Positions 8,816 through 29,930 of a DNA stretch of 42,991 nucleotides are shown here, in pieces. Numbering within the stretch: position 1 is the first letter of the stretch; each line of letters begins with the position of its first letter. Made by a program: the position numbers and the translations under genes. The stretch comes from Kordia jejudonensis. Lineage in GTDB: Bacteria; Bacteroidota; Bacteroidia; Flavobacteriales; Flavobacteriaceae. The notes beneath the pieces were generated by a model. It did not search any database. It worked only from the letters and a program-made list of their open reading frames with translations, and had not been told where the DNA came from. The DNA is taken from contig NZ_LBMG01000047.1 of the NCBI RefSeq assembly GCF_001005315.1, forward strand, positions 1-42,991, given 5' to 3'.

Positions 8816-9028
8816 ATGTTAAAGAAAATTAGGAATTTACAAGGAACAAAACATCTTTCTAAGAAAGAACAACAAAAGTTAAAAGGAGGAAATGTCGATG
8901 GTTATACTTGTCCAACTGGACCATACTTAGTGTTTGGGAATGGTTGTAATGGGAATGATCATTTACATCCACAAGGTCACTGTTTGTGTTGTGAAGCGCC
9001 ATGGCAAGGTCCGATTCGAGAGCTCTAA
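8816..9028 (+). CDS. Bacteriocin-type GG-leader peptide, 70 aa
   Basis: The leader MLKKIRNLQGTKHLSKKEQQKLKGG is of the other Bacteroidetes type (MLKxIxNLxGxxxLSKxEQKxIxGG), which resembles double-glycine leaders cleaved by C39 peptidase-ABC exporters. The 45-residue tail has five Cys, including HCLCCEAPW near the end, plus several Gly, Asn and His. The start is the ATG at 8816; the overlapping ATG at 8812 is out of frame and stops after six codons. An inverted-repeat operator and a promoter-like box lie 30-75 bp upstream, and a terminator follows. No exporter is encoded in the window; function (bacteriocin, signal or redox peptide) is unknown. Confidence 0.8.
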   Translation: MLKKIRNLQGTKHLSKKEQQKLKGGNVDGYTCPTGPYLVFGNGCNGNDHLHPQGHCLCCEAPWQGPIREL

Positions 9029-9125: not shown

Positions 9126-9152
9126 TAATTGTTAACCATAACTTTTATCAGC

Positions 9153-9326
9153 ATGAAAAAAAGAAGTATTAAATCGTTAAAATTAAGAAAAAAGACTGTT
9201 TCAAACTTACACAAGCATTCAGTTTCAGGAGCAGCAGCAGGAACAAATTCTTGGGTTGGTTTGTGCGGATCATCTTGGGATGTACCATGTAAATGGACAG
9301 ATTTTTTATGTGATATTTTTGATTAA
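9153..9326 (+). CDS. Lanthipeptide-type leader peptide without a Gly-Gly site, 57 aa
   Basis: The start MKKRSIKSLKLRKKTVSNL fits the KSLxLxKxxVSNL leader well. The usual GG is replaced by SGAAAG (about residues 26-31). The tail is about 26 residues, Trp-rich (three Trp) and has three Cys (GLCGSS, VPCKW, FLCDIFD). I chose the ATG at 9153 over the upstream TTG at 9129 because it gives the canonical MKKR leader start. It lies between two terminators and is probably monocistronic. Loss of GG may mean a different leader peptidase site or a decaying paralogue. Confidence 0.7.
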   Translation: MKKRSIKSLKLRKKTVSNLHKHSVSGAAAGTNSWVGLCGSSWDVPCKWTDFLCDIFD

Positions 9327-9689: not shown

Positions 9690-10427
9690 ATGAAAAAAAA
9701 ATATTTTAAATCAATTGGGCTTGTTGTTCTAGGAGGAATATTATCAGCCTTTATTTTTTCTTTTTCTCCAAAAATGTTACCATCTAATCAAACTACATCG
9801 ATATCCAATCCTTCTGAGCCTAAATTATCTAATAAGGTTTGTCTTGAAGAAGCTCAGCATGAAATAGCAGCGTATCAAATGTGGTTAAAATATTTACCTA
9901 AAACAGTTTCATTTGATACTTCAAATTCCAAAAAAGTTAAAATTAATTTCCATCCTAGAGAAATAGATGCGGAAGATTGGAAAATTCTAAATGGGTATAT
10001 TGCCCCTTTTTTAGGAAATAAACCAAAAGACATTAACTCTAAAGAATACTCATACTGTTATTTTCCATTTCATAGCAGATTAAATACATCATATTTCATC
10101 AGTAGAGAAGATATTAGAGAATCATTTGAGTCATTACCAAACGCTGATGGTATTAATGTTTATATAGGAATAAGAGGTCTTAAAGAGCTAAATTTAGATT
10201 CTATGGAATCTCATTTATTTGTAGTGCCAACTAATAAAGTATATAACGAAATTTTGAAAGACTCTGTTTTAAAAGATCATTTAATTGATCACAACCTTGT
10301 AAAGAACGCCTTGGACTTGACACATCCATGTCCTAAATTATGTGATAAAGACTCTGAGTTGTACTATCCACCTCTGAAATCAAGATATGAATCAATATCT
10401 ATATCATGTTTAACTAAAAAAGATTAA
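9690..10427 (+). CDS. Exported PCPxxC-family protein of unknown function
   Basis: The 245-residue protein starts with a hydrophobic export or anchor segment (about residues 8-28). Past a linker it has an IR..F.SLPNADGINVYIGIRGLKE stretch (about 142-166) and a DLTHPCPKLC motif (209-218). Together these match a family I know from Bacteroidetes genomes with a GIRxYxGL...D(L/M)(S/T)xPCPxxC signature and no assigned function. A second divergent member lies at 12689-13627. It is the first gene of a run with the membrane protein, histidine kinase and regulator, 21 bp upstream of the next start, so it may feed the signal those proteins sense; that is inference. Confidence 0.65.
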   Translation: MKKKYFKSIGLVVLGGILSAFIFSFSPKMLPSNQTTSISNPSEPKLSNKVCLEEAQHEIAAYQMWLKYLPKTVSFDTSNSKKVKINFHPREIDAEDWKILNGYIAPFLGNKPKDINSKEYSYCYFPFHSRLNTSYFISREDIRESFESLPNADGINVYIGIRGLKELNLDSMESHLFVVPTNKVYNEILKDSVLKDHLIDHNLVKNALDLTHPCPKLCDKDSELYYPPLKSRYESISISCLTKKD

Positions 10428-12559: not shown

Positions 12560-12590
12560 CTTTTAAGAATAGTATATAACTAATCAGAAA

Positions 12591-12623
12591 AGTAAAGCAG
12601 GTCAGAAGATCTGCTTTACTTTT
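12591..12623. terminator. Bidirectional hairpin between convergent genes
   Basis: AGTAAAGCAG (12591-12600) pairs with CTGCTTTACT (12611-12620), with GTC/GAT partly extending the stem. It resembles the hairpins at 13791, 14434 and 15051 (GCAGGTC/GACCTGC-type). Confidence 0.7.
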
Positions 12624-12688: not shown

Positions 12689-13627
12689 TTATGCAAATAA
12701 ATTAGAATACTCATATTGATCAAACAAATTGTGTAAAGTATCTTTTAGAGCATCCAAAGCCTTGTCGTATTGTTTATTTTTCAATAATAGTTTAAAAGGA
12801 ATAATTTCATTTTTATAAAAATTATTCAGCGCAATTTCGTCATTTCCTGTATTACTGTTAGAAATAATTTTAGCGACTACTGGAGAAACAAAATAGTACA
12901 TTTCAAACAATCGTGCTCCACCTTCTATATCTAGCATGAGATAATCTCTAAAAGCTCGATAAACATTTAATTCATCCTCATGATCTGCAAATTTTTCTAC
13001 GGCAAGAGTTGTAATACAAATTTCTGAACCACCACACATATTAGGGCAAGGATCTGTCAAATCCATATAGATTTCATTAACAGGGACGTAACTTATATCT
13101 AAAGCTTTAATGACAGGGCTTATATGATCTCCATTATAACCTAAATCATATTGAACAAATTTAGAATTATCAACTAATATACTTTTCAAACTATCTTTTC
13201 CATAAAAATTACCTCTAGTTATTTCTTTATAGATAAATTCTGGATGATCTTTTGATACATTTATTATGTATTGGGACATAAATAATAAAACTTCTTGAAA
13301 GGTATAGAAATTTCCTTCATGGTCTTGATAACCTTCTTTTCTTAACATGGATTCTGTTGAAAGATTTTTAGACAAACTAGAGCATGGAATTAAAAATAAA
13401 ACTTTAGAATTTGGATTTAAAGAATCTTTTAATCCATACATAAATCGAATTCCTACTACATCTTTATGAAAGTTTAAATTTTTCTCAACAAGAGCTTTGG
13501 GAATTATAAAGCTAGTCTCATCGTTATAAACTTTCTTGTAATTATTTTTTAAAAGGTTATAATCATTTTTTGTAATTGCTTGACCAATATTTCTAGGATT
13601 AGTAACTGTTTTTCTTTGTGTTTCCAT
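12689..13627 (-). CDS. Second PCPxxC-family protein, cytoplasmic form
   Basis: The 312-residue protein shares the layout of the 9690 product: SFIIPKALVEKNL followed by VVGIRFMYGLKDS (about 39-69), a LFLIPCSS strand (78-84) and MDLTDPCPNMC (188-198). Unlike that protein it lacks a signal peptide, has a longer middle region, and adds a mostly helical C-terminal ~110 residues. It is transcribed toward the response regulator, with a shared hairpin between. Its upstream side (13628-13790) is AT-rich with no other gene. Function unknown; the family signature is remembered, not searched. Confidence 0.65.
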   Translation of the reverse strand: METQRKTVTNPRNIGQAITKNDYNLLKNNYKKVYNDETSFIIPKALVEKNLNFHKDVVGIRFMYGLKDSLNPNSKVLFLIPCSSLSKNLSTESMLRKEGYQDHEGNFYTFQEVLLFMSQYIINVSKDHPEFIYKEITRGNFYGKDSLKSILVDNSKFVQYDLGYNGDHISPVIKALDISYVPVNEIYMDLTDPCPNMCGGSEICITTLAVEKFADHEDELNVYRAFRDYLMLDIEGGARLFEMYYFVSPVVAKIISNSNTGNDEIALNNFYKNEIIPFKLLLKNKQYDKALDALKDTLHNLFDQYEYSNLFA

Positions 13628-13789
13628 AATTTTTAAATGATAATTAAATTTAATTTAGTGAGCCTTATATACATAATAAGCCTCTTAAATTCATAATTTA
13701 GTGAAAAATATAAAAATATGAAAGTAAATTGTATGTATTTTTATTGCTTATTCATACGTTAAATAATGAAAAATCTTGTTAATTTTAAA

Positions 13790-13816
13790 AAGTAGGTCAT
13801 TTGACCTACTTTTTTT
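13790..13816 (+). terminator. Hairpin with T-tract, no plus-strand gene upstream
   Basis: AGTAGGTCA (13791-13799) pairs with TGACCTACT (13802-13810), then seven T. The only gene to its left runs on the other strand, so there is no plus-strand transcript to end unless one starts inside 13628-13790. It may be an attenuator or the relic border of a lost cassette. Confidence 0.65.
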
Positions 13817-13870
13817 ATGGAACAGATTCTTTACACTGAATTTGTAAACCCTTCTTTCTGCGCTTACTAG
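13817..13870 (+). CDS. Possible 17-aa upstream ORF, copy 1
   Basis: ATG follows the T-tract of the hairpin immediately, and the frame reads MEQILYTEFVNPSFCAY before TAG. The copy at 14461 reads MKQILYTVFINPSFCAY with the same length. Three residues and one silent position differ. Translation is unproven. Confidence 0.35.
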   Translation: MEQILYTEFVNPSFCAY

Positions 13871-14022
13871 ACGTATTCATTCTTCGCACCTTTACACCAT
13901 CGATAGCTAACGATAGTGAAGCAGCACTCACTTTAAAAAACGATCTTTTTATCAAGAGGAATGATAAAGGCGGAATCTGAAAAGCCTTATGAGTAGGAAC
14001 AATCAATTTAAAAATTAAAATT
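13817..14022 (+). repeat. Leader module copy 1 (duplicated 5' region with 17-aa ORF)
   Basis: This ~206-bp region is about 85% identical by eye to 14461-14665, and both end at the ATGGA of a small gene. It opens with a 17-codon ORF directly after the T-tract (13817-13870: MEQILYTEFVNPSFCAY). Next is a conserved hairpin (CACCATCG with CGATAGTG, about 13910-13933). The 3' part contains a GGCGGAATCTGAAAAGCC segment whose GGC/GCC ends could pair. The least conserved part is the ~30 bases at about 13940-13970. It could be a 5' UTR control RNA or a recombination/cassette border. Confidence 0.75.
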
Positions 14023-14406
14023 ATGGAATATTCAGTACAAGCAAAAGAAAACAGTGTAACTGATGGAACAGGTAAAGAAGCAGGAACTTATCAAAGAGGA
14101 AGTTTAGTTATTATTACAAGTAATCCTGAAGACCAATGGTATTTGGCTGATAATCAAGGATTAGATTGTAACGCTGATGGATTAAGCGTAAGCGATTATA
14201 CGCACGCTAGATACACCAAAGATGGCACAACTATAAACCTAGGAACTATGGTAGGTAGTATAGATGATGGAAACAGCTTTTTTCCTGTGGGAACAATCTG
14301 TGAATTAAGCATTACAAGTGATAATACGCAATTGAAACTGTATTGTTGGGATTCAGATAAAGTAAACAATAGTGGTGCTATTAATGCTTATGTGCAATCT
14401 CGTTAA
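14023..14406 (+). CDS. Small beta-rich protein, possibly LecA-like lectin
   Basis: The 127-residue protein has no signal peptide. By eye it resembles PA-IL/LecA: GTYQRGSLVIITSNPEDQW would match the GQVTSIIYNPGDVITI region, and LKLYCWDSDKVNNSG matches the Ca2+/galactose-binding loop (IYND...NNSG) except that the loop is two residues shorter. Length and the late Asn-Asn-Ser-Gly also fit. This is a pattern-based suggestion, not a confirmed family call. It sits directly behind leader module 1 and ahead of a hairpin terminator, so it is probably transcribed alone. Confidence 0.6.
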   Translation: MEYSVQAKENSVTDGTGKEAGTYQRGSLVIITSNPEDQWYLADNQGLDCNADGLSVSDYTHARYTKDGTTINLGTMVGSIDDGNSFFPVGTICELSITSDNTQLKLYCWDSDKVNNSGAINAYVQSR

Positions 14407-14433
14407 TTGTCTTTATAATTTAGGTTATAAGTA

Positions 14434-14460
14434 AAGCAGGTCTTTTGACCTGCTTTTTTT
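14434..14460 (+). terminator. Terminator after the lectin-like gene
   Basis: AAGCAGGTC (14434-14442) pairs perfectly with GACCTGCTT (14447-14455), followed by a T run that leads straight into the ATG of the second small ORF. Confidence 0.8.
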
Positions 14461-14514
14461 ATGAAACAGATTCTTTACACTGTATTTATAAATCCTTCTT
14501 TCTGCGCTTACTAG
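14461..14514 (+). CDS. Possible 17-aa upstream ORF, copy 2
   Basis: The frame reads MKQILYTVFINPSFCAY then TAG, in the same position relative to the hairpin and the downstream gene as the ORF at 13817. Translation is unproven. Confidence 0.35.
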   Translation: MKQILYTVFINPSFCAY

Positions 14515-14665
14515 GCATGCTCATTCTTTGCACCTTTACACTATCGATAGCTAAAGATAGTGAAGCAGCATTCACTTAAAAAAACGGTCTTTCTGTTAAG
14601 ATTAATAATAGAGGTGGAATCCGAAAAGCCTTATGAGTAGGAAAACCAATTAAAAATTTAAAATT
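14461..14665 (+). repeat. Leader module copy 2
   Basis: This is the second copy of the region at 13817-14022, at nearly the same length (one base shorter). The hairpin is CACTATC/GATAGTG here (7 bp, perfect), where copy 1 has CACCATCG/CGATAGTG. The 3' segment is GGTGGAATCCGAAAAGCC, which keeps potential G-U pairing at the changed base. The downstream coding sequences are not visibly related, so the leader is conserved better than the genes it precedes. Confidence 0.75.
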
Positions 14666-15013
14666 ATGGAAACAATAAATTATTCAAAATCAATAGTCCT
14701 AAAAGTAACAACTGTAGATAATGAATTAACTGTTAGTTTAAATCAAGATGTTCCAGGCGGATCAAAATTTGCTGAAATATACAATCGTTCTGTTTCAGGT
14801 TTTGCTACTGGAGTAAATGATACTATAGATTTTACTAAAACGATGGCTGGTTTAGGTGATTCTGCTGTTCTTACTGCAGTAGCAAGTAATTTTGCTGGAG
14901 GCGGCCAAGTTACATTTGATGTAATAGCAGATGGTAAATCAGCCTTTAAAAAAGATCAAAATTTCAAAGAATATTCTTCTCAACAATGGGCAGTTGCTAT
15001 TGAAAAAATATAG
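14666..15013 (+). CDS. Small hypothetical protein behind leader module 2
   Basis: This 115-residue protein has alternating hydrophobic residues that suggest a beta-sandwich (SIVLKVTTVDNELTVSL, VTFDVIADG) and a Gly-rich middle (SNFAGGGQ). There is no signal peptide and only weak resemblance to the upstream lectin-like protein beyond the initial Met-Glu. I do not recognise a family. It shares the same upstream module and terminator layout as that gene, so the two are probably controlled alike. Confidence 0.6.
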   Translation: METINYSKSIVLKVTTVDNELTVSLNQDVPGGSKFAEIYNRSVSGFATGVNDTIDFTKTMAGLGDSAVLTAVASNFAGGGQVTFDVIADGKSAFKKDQNFKEYSSQQWAVAIEKI

Positions 15014-15050
15014 CACATACATTTTGAATTATAAGTTAGTATTATGTGAA

Positions 15051-15080
15051 AAAGCAGGTTCGTTTTGAACCTGCTTTTTT
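15051..15080. terminator. Bidirectional terminator between the small gene and ridA
   Basis: AAAGCAGGTTC (15051-15061) pairs with GAACCTGCTTT (15067-15077) with T-tracts on both sides, which would serve both the plus-strand small gene and the minus-strand ridA. Confidence 0.8.
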
Positions 15081-15104
15081 AATATTGTATTTTTTATATA
15101 AATT

Positions 15105-29593: not shown

Positions 29594-29792
29594 TTTGTGC
29601 ATGTGTGGTTTGTTAAGTTGATACGCCTTCATAAAAAACAAATCCATGACACACAACTAACAACAACTAAATCCACGACACACAATTGTTAACGAATGTT
29701 AAAATCATTCAATCTTTCCTTTTTTAATCTTTTAAATCCAATCAACTCTTTTTTGTATGCGAGAAAGTCTGTACATTTAATCTATATTCGAG

Positions 29793-29930
29793 TTAAGGAT
29801 AGAAACGGCATCCTTTTTGCGTCAGTTCGAGTGAATTTGCAGCGCAAATTTGTATCGAGAACAAGCAAAAAGATACAGTGAATAGCCTGACCGAAGAACA
29901 CCGCGTAGCAAGGTGTTGTTTGGGAACTCC
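29793..29930 (+). ncRNA. Structured repeat/RNA-like element
   Basis: This segment of the 29594-29955 gap can fold extensively. ATCCTTTTTGC (29810-29820) pairs with GCAAAAAGAT (29865-29874), allowing one bulge. Inside, AATTTGC (29834-29840) pairs with GCAAATT (29844-29850) and GTTC (29825) with GAAC (29859). On the 3' side AACACC (29897-29902) pairs with GGTGTT (29912-29917). The phrases GGATAGAAACGGCATCCTTT and AAAAAGATACAGTGAATAGCC recall a motif I have seen repeatedly in Flavobacteriia genomes, possibly the Flavo-1 RNA, but I cannot confirm that name. It lies 26 bp upstream of the GH3 gene. Confidence 0.55.

Follow-up and report, generated by a model that had tools for sequence, protein, structure and literature searches.

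Two units of the same order, a hairpin, a leader and a small gene, follow each other at 13791-14433 and 14434-15050 of the 42,991-nt stretch of Kordia jejudonensis DNA analysed here (the window). Their leaders are nearly alike and their genes are not, and this raises the question of what the leader is and how different genes came to lie behind it. The original prediction, made from the letters alone, offered two answers: either the leader is a mobile or recombinogenic promoter or 5' untranslated region that captures small genes, or it is a shared regulatory RNA that controls a set of secreted-like, beta-rich proteins.

The results showed that the tandem layout is real, with the open reading frames as predicted (Table 1). 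The sequence at 13789-13999 is repeated at 14433-14643 with 88% identity over 211 nt, and the repeat goes on from 14001-14028 to 14644-14671 (28 nt, 89%). When the two leaders were compared, the identity was 87% (E = 4.9e-66), and the stretch from nt 28 to nt 118 of the leader has 81 identical positions out of 91 (89%). Identity is 0.86 over the last 22 nt before the ATG and 0.53-0.60 past the start codon, which is the level of unrelated control pairs. The similarity therefore ends at the start codon, and the leader is better conserved than the genes, as had been claimed. Each hairpin at a unit boundary resembles a terminator of the gene before it; the terminator scan matched at 14433, at 15047 and at 12588, past the response regulator gene, and gave no match at 13791, the first hairpin of unit 1. 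Unit 1 is separated from the response regulator by a gene at 12689-13627 (-), whose protein matches no Pfam family above the cut-off and nothing in the stretch taken from the congener G001. By eye, this protein has a short stretch in common with the protein encoded at 9690-10427 (+) (DLTHPCPKLC / DLTDPCPNMC).

Table 1. Coordinates of the tandem units and of the elements within them (positions in the window)
Feature	Position	Strand	Basis
Terminator-like hairpin past the response regulator gene, resembling the unit-bounding hairpins	12588..12623	+	Terminator scan; repeat families D4/I1
Hairpin and T-tract opening unit 1	13791..13816	+	Terminator-like by eye; absent from scan
Unit 1 leader, 206 nt	13817..14022	+	87% to 14461-14665; 83% to congener G001 over 233 nt that include the hairpin
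5' hairpin H2 of unit 1 (AGTGA/TCACT), resembling the first DUF805 RNA hairpin	13915..13932	+	Pairs kept in 5/5 long leaders; L181 aligned to RF03081
Possible inserted hairpin H3 of unit 1 (TCTT/AAGA)	13944..13957	+	All 4 pairs in 3/5 long leaders, aligned register
DUF805b RNA (RF02914) of unit 1; pseudoknot helix 13976-13978 with 13996-13998	13967..13999	+	37.9 bits, cut-off 35.6
Unit 1 gene, 127 aa	14023..14406	+	ORF list; without Pfam match
Terminator-like hairpin separating the units	14433..14456	+	Terminator scan
Unit 2 leader, 205 nt	14461..14665	+	Repeat comparison with unit 1 leader
5' hairpin H2 of unit 2	14559..14576	+	Pairs in long-leader alignment
Possible inserted hairpin H3 of unit 2	14588..14601	+	Same reservation as unit 1 H3
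DUF805b-like RNA of unit 2; pseudoknot helix 14620-14622 with 14640-14642	14611..14643	+	32.3 bits, E = 7.6e-7, under cut-off 35.6
Unit 2 gene, 115 aa, predicted all-beta	14666..15013	+	ORF list; structure model
Terminator-like hairpin past unit 2	15047..15081	+	Terminator scan

The two small proteins show as little relation to each other as had been supposed. No BLASTP alignment between them was obtained at E<=100, a profile comparison with one homologue each gave a probability of 0.3%, and nothing significant connected them in BLASTP, Pfam, PDB sequence or profile searches. By sequence, the genes are thus not the homologues that an ordinary tandem duplication leaves behind, and the model of the 127-aa protein is too poor for a comparison of folds. 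AlphaFold2 with a two-row alignment gave a poor model for the 127-aa protein (pLDDT 45.4) and an all-beta model for the 115-aa protein (pLDDT 84.7); the best PDB match of the latter was DUF4425 (E = 7.6e-3, TM 0.49), and none was found at E<=0.001. Both genes are rare. The 127-aa gene occurs in 2 of 11 genus genomes, its own and G003, where the one homologue found (about 40% identical) likewise lies behind a DUF805b-like element. The 115-aa gene occurs in 1 of 11 genus genomes, its own, and a homologue (61%) was found in one genome of another genus. That homologue lies behind a DUF805b element of its own, which scores 42.7 bits, and no more than 11 nt of the window leader could be matched to the locus. 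Among 249 genomes of the family, in which congeners are thinly sampled, the 127-aa gene was found in no other and the 115-aa gene in one other. The 127-aa protein had no match in viral contigs, and the 115-aa protein had none in the genome-contig set searched. Next to the 115-aa homologue in the other genus (L150), its 3' part can be made out by eye a second time in degraded form, along with an ORF that resembles an IS1-type transposase.

The 3' end of the leader is DUF805b RNA, a cis-regulatory family of Rfam (RF02914, clan CL00115). In cmscan, the curated cut-off was reached by the element of unit 1 and was not reached by that of unit 2, which is named DUF805b-like because it is related yet below the cut-off; the copy in G001 (34.3 bits) is also below it. 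The element ends shortly before the start codon in both units (13999 to 14023 and 14643 to 14666). Rfam holds both DUF805b and DUF805 as cis-regulatory families, names without a function, so the earlier statement that no such system had been described is not correct as to the RNA. No functional study of either RNA was found in the literature searched, as judged by titles and the first parts of abstracts, and the main text of PMC9723704 has no word starting with DUF. STnc430, the L20 leader, RefA9 and AS-pc01 were rejected as candidates for the locus, with cmscan scores far under their cut-offs. Elsewhere in the window, Flavo-1 RNA (RF01705) was matched above its cut-off at 29787-29896 (+) with 49.9 bits; matches to this family in F. 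psychrophilum have been reported without a clear function, according to PMC9723704.

In its 5' part the leader has a counterpart of the hairpin with which the sister family DUF805 (RF03081) begins, and an inserted stretch in addition. The DUF805-type 5' hairpin followed by AAAAAACG is present in the five long leaders, and the alignment of the locus L181 agrees with this. All five pairs of this hairpin (H2) form in 5/5 long leaders, and one pair occurs as A-U, G-U and G-C. The inserted stretch may form a further hairpin (H3), of which, in the aligned register, two of the four pairs fail in G008 and one or two in G029, where a shifted register pairs by eye. The cut-off of RF03081 (a 68-position two-hairpin model, 51.1 bits) was reached neither in the window nor in the long-form loci L061, L062 and L181-L184, and L181 gave the one RF03081 match listed for the long form (34.2 bits). 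Of 14 loci scanned, six matched RF03081 and two RF02914 above the cut-offs, and these long-form loci matched neither. When a long-form model was searched against 397 genomes of the family, 74 matched at E<=0.01. The strongest matches besides the two copies in the window were in G029, G195, G280 and G160 (108 to 75 bits), and weaker ones grade into ordinary DUF805 and DUF805b. We read the window leader as a probable third architecture of clan CL00115, a reading that rests on few sequences. The minimum-energy folds of the three full leaders disagree with one another. In another genus, the locus L210 (G160:C21:385000-401500) has three matches to the long-leader model within about 10 kb, and the two that were read lie ahead of ORFs of 519 and 135 aa.

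We found that DUF805b is an H-type pseudoknot, in which the loop of a hairpin of about 4 bp pairs with a downstream tail about 20 nt before the start codon. The loop nCC within GGAAnCCGAAAA can pair with the tail GGn' of GAGTAGGn'. This pairing was first spotted by eye on elements of the genus and was then tested on 59 elements, 30 from the own genome and 29 from other genomes of the phylum, which Infernal had located using a model free of any pseudoknot pair. The hairpin cells were paired in 91.5% and the pseudoknot cells in 98.3%, and changes on both sides occurred in all 7 pairs. The covariation score of the pseudoknot was 0.493, compared with 0.144 for shuffled alignments; it was reached by 0 of 500 shuffles, and slid registers gave at most 0.063. 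Of the 29 elements from other genomes of the phylum, 27 have a Watson-Crick outer pseudoknot pair (G-C 17, U-A 7, C-G 2, A-U 1), and the two inner pairs are invariant in them, so that the changes in the inner pairs stem from the own genome. Among 26 further, mostly DUF805-type, matches, 23 were readable by the pattern; their innermost pair was C-G in 12, U-A in 7, A-U in 1 and U-G in 3, and the outer pair was Watson-Crick in just 9 of the 23. Covariation, which had been suggested as a check on the leader, thus appears in both the hairpin and the pseudoknot helix of DUF805b elements. The covarying 3-bp helix, which is strongly supported, is an addition to the Rfam structure printed by cmscan, which has the 4-bp hairpin only.

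We then have to consider whether the gene behind one leader differs between species. At the window locus, which is flanked by the response regulator and RidA, the own genome (G000) carries two units with genes of 127 and 115 aa, and G001 carries one unit with a gene of 230 aa. The G001 leader is 83% identical to that of unit 1 (194/233) and 82% to that of unit 2 (190/232). Because fourfold-degenerate sites of five flanking genes agree at just 249 of 532 positions (47%) between these genomes, the identity of the leaders indicates constraint, and the leader is better conserved than the genes between species too. The 230-aa protein shows 27-29% identity to a family that other congeners carry behind DUF805b. 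Nothing in the window matches it, and the 127-aa and 115-aa genes have no match anywhere in G001. The other nine congeners had no close response regulator match inside the stretch taken around RidA. Of the 24 differences private to G001, 19 fall in leader nt 28-118 (shuffle p = 0.0009), and this clustering may reflect recombination or mere weaker constraint there.

A second locus gave a similar picture. Genes of 65-66 aa, with a signal peptide by eye, lie behind the leader in three species, and genes for GG-type peptides of 52-54 aa lie there in three others. Its orthology rests on the upstream flank, which is the same in both groups (about 70-72% over about 900 nt), and on the leaders, which are 71-85% identical over 171-264 nt between the groups, with the agreement ending about 6 nt into the ORF. 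The stretches retrieved for each group gave no match to the gene type of the other. In the GG-peptide group, a following ORF starts like an ATP-grasp ligase. At a third locus, two species have the order leader, 88-aa gene, 220-aa gene, and another has the leader directly ahead of the 220-aa gene, which is a gain or loss of the first gene and no swap. In G006, a tandem pair of leaders is 93% identical over 267 nt, and the 217-aa and 92-aa proteins behind them have no BLASTP match to each other.

These results indicate that the gene behind an orthologous leader differs between species, with the change at the start codon, at two loci, which supports the original prediction in so far as it placed one leader before different genes. 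Such a change is the minority outcome. When only leader pairs with an alignment of 150 nt or more were counted, 64 in all, the genes behind them were homologous in 50 and not so at E<1e-3 in 14 (one of them borderline, 0.003; non-homology of very short peptides was judged by BLAST), so leaders are mostly inherited along with their genes. By our reading, the 14 pairs fall into seven groups, namely the window locus, the second locus, the G006 pair, the 88/220-aa locus, L085/L227, L072/L086 and L065/L070. A wider tally of 173 elements with a readable ATG ORF lowered the limit to 80 nt and gave 167 leader pairs, of which 76 precede genes for homologous proteins and 91 do not; it was set aside, as many pairs of 80-110 nt share merely the DUF805 motif and some ORFs are cut short.

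DUF805b is a multi-copy family. At E<=1e-4, it has 37 matches in the own genome, 11-46 in each of 11 genus genomes and at least one in 106 of 395 phylum genomes (own included), compared with 0 of 14 control genomes in the genus and phylum searches alike. The full-length leader is found in the own genome in only these two places, and across that genome and a set of 60 genomes (at most 13 candidates scored per genome) three copies were found, at one locus in two species. The last 35 nt or so, on the other hand, are part of the multi-copy family, whose members typically stand some 20 nt ahead of the start codons of very different genes. Same-strand pairs of elements within 1 kb number at least 5 in this genome and at least 11 in other congeners (by eye, among roughly the 150 best matches).

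The spacing to the start codon was measured in a non-redundant set of 94 elements with an ATG ORF within 60 nt, nearly all of them from the genus; in 93 it is 16-28 nt, counted from the end of the motif. In the own genome, 2 of 37 elements have no ATG ORF (one of them is cut by a contig end), and in two more the first ATG is just 4 and 6 nt off. Promoter-like matches are a weak signal, found in 20 of the 94 (12.75 in shuffles) and, where present, 7-112 nt upstream. The TAnnTTTG box, the flavobacterial -7 element according to PMC9723704, occurs 19 times upstream of the 94 (11.6 expected), 11 of these in the bins 20-39 nt upstream.

The genes behind the element are diverse. In the own genome, a heuristic count over 37 of the 38 matches with E<1e-3 (one at a contig end left out) gave 12 GG-type short peptides, 13 proteins with a hydrophobic N-terminus, 10 with neither and 2 elements for which no ATG ORF could be read. 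Inspection by eye casts doubt on L049 as a GG-type peptide and on L040 and L046 as secreted proteins. The description of the controlled proteins as secreted-like therefore fits part of the set and does not fit the two window proteins, which have no signal peptide by eye. In Pfam at E<=0.001, the 94 proteins included DUF4214 (4), M12-type metallopeptidase (3), DUF1842 (3), PixA (2) and Bacteroid_pep (2), with others at 1-2 each. The total of the matches listed is 34, which leaves at least 60 of the 94 proteins with none. In NCBIfam, the class I lanthipeptide leader was matched by 6 proteins, CCPGW by 2 and two other families by 1 each. Elsewhere in the phylum, the genes behind the element were, by eye, those of a DUF805 protein, a rhodopsin and more GG-type peptides; in L162, the rhodopsin-like gene lies right behind it. 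In the window, two short RiPP-like peptides are encoded by eye at 8816-9028 and 9129-9326 (+), one with a GG motif. Because no DUF805b match at the gathering threshold lies ahead of these ORFs, the element is not on all such peptide genes.

Taken with the variety of the genes, the narrow spacing to the start codon and the position by the initiation region suggest that the genes are controlled in common after transcription, and translation initiation is the simplest step for this. We consider it fairly probable that the element controls an accessory regulon at the level of translation and that the genes of this regulon are replaced over time while the element stays. Each small gene would have in its leader, for the most part, a 5' untranslated region, with the DUF805-clan pseudoknot at the 3' end; the window form carries the first DUF805 hairpin and the inserted stretch as well. 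The element would act on translation initiation, or on mRNA stability, through a common trans-acting reader; this is suggested by its place just upstream of ribosome loading and by the start-codon distance, which is narrow, while the nearest promoter-like sites stand at variable distances. RiPP-like precursors, secreted proteins and small signal-less proteins would in this way be put under one control. Selection would hold the leader and its spacing, and the genes below could disappear, arrive or be swapped, either through recombination or because tandem arrays lose different members in different species. More tentatively, and with more doubt than belief, we propose that DUF805-clan pseudoknot leaders are fixed expression platforms of this regulon. 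The RNA, read at translation initiation by a single trans-acting factor, would be held in place by strong selection, and the genes for bacteriocin-like and other GG-type peptides and for inclusion-body and other small proteins would be exchanged at the start codon, each newcomer falling at once under the shared control.

How the genes came to differ can be explained in other ways. An ancestral array of small genes may have stood behind one or more leaders, with each species losing different members, and we regard this as a real possibility that we would nevertheless not bet on. It would account for the leader-88aa-220aa and leader-220aa arrangements at one locus and agrees with the frequency of tandem elements and repeated genes; it sits less well with the second locus, where neither gene was found in the stretch fetched from the other group. 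Because the 127-aa and 115-aa genes are so sparsely distributed in the genus and beyond, transfer fits better than an ancestral array, and we lean towards it on their known occurrence. It is very unlikely that a whole unit was duplicated in tandem and the genes diverged beyond recognition: the same order, the similar terminator-like ends and the 81 of 91 agreement would follow from this, but the genes fall to the unrelated-control level right past the ATG even though the units keep 89% identity where the leader is less constrained, homologues of the two genes occur elsewhere separately, and G001 carries a third, unrelated gene. The mobile leader that moves and captures genes, one form of the first answer of the original prediction, would explain near-identical leaders ahead of unrelated genes, but with full-length copies found at just one locus in two species among the genomes searched and with most similar leaders ahead of homologous genes we hold it to be highly improbable.

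The second answer, a shared regulatory RNA ahead of a set of genes, agrees with the DUF805b content of the leader and with the many copies before various genes. Two other readings of the element itself have to be weighed. The conserved block might work as DNA, as an operator or alternative promoter, and the high sequence conservation of GAAAA and GAGTAGG would suit that; several pair types, however, covary in both helices, and the distance from hairpin to tail varies by more than 10 nt, so that a DNA function seems to us hardly credible. A small-molecule riboswitch, read neither by a protein nor by the ribosome, would be in keeping with a compact pseudoknot and its strongly conserved unpaired bases, and we rate it as unlikely though worth keeping in mind, given that the scan of the window found no terminator between the element and the gene and that the gene families behind the element have no evident common pathway.

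Several points make the element of interest. Flavobacterial ribosomes have been described as working without Shine-Dalgarno pairing, according to PMC6847099 and PMC9976891, and an element just upstream of the start codon is notable where that pairing is skipped. The covarying pseudoknot offers a testable fold for DUF805 and DUF805b, and the list of genes in the genus suggests a role in the control of accessory and competition genes. A gene change at the start codon below a conserved leader would, if true, give new small genes an easy way into a regulon.

Among the systems to which the window leader can be compared, DUF805b RNA (RF02914) is matched by 33 nt near the 3' end of each leader with the ORF close behind, and the window leader differs in having extra 5' structure. 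DUF805 RNA (RF03081) has a 5' hairpin AGTGnAGcAG..., then AAAAAACG, then the pseudoknot hairpin and ATGAGTAGG, in all of which the window form resembles it, but about 30 nt are inserted between the parts (in L181, 47 rather than 18 alignment positions). The small H-type pseudoknot riboswitches of the preQ1-I type are similar in that a hairpin loop pairs with a 3' tail within about 35 nt upstream of a gene; here, in contrast, the tail lies about 20 nt before the start codon, the copy number is high and the genes are unrelated. Gene-cassette systems with a constant expression platform likewise have a constant upstream region with changing genes behind it, whereas the constant part at this locus contains a structured RNA that is found at many loci.
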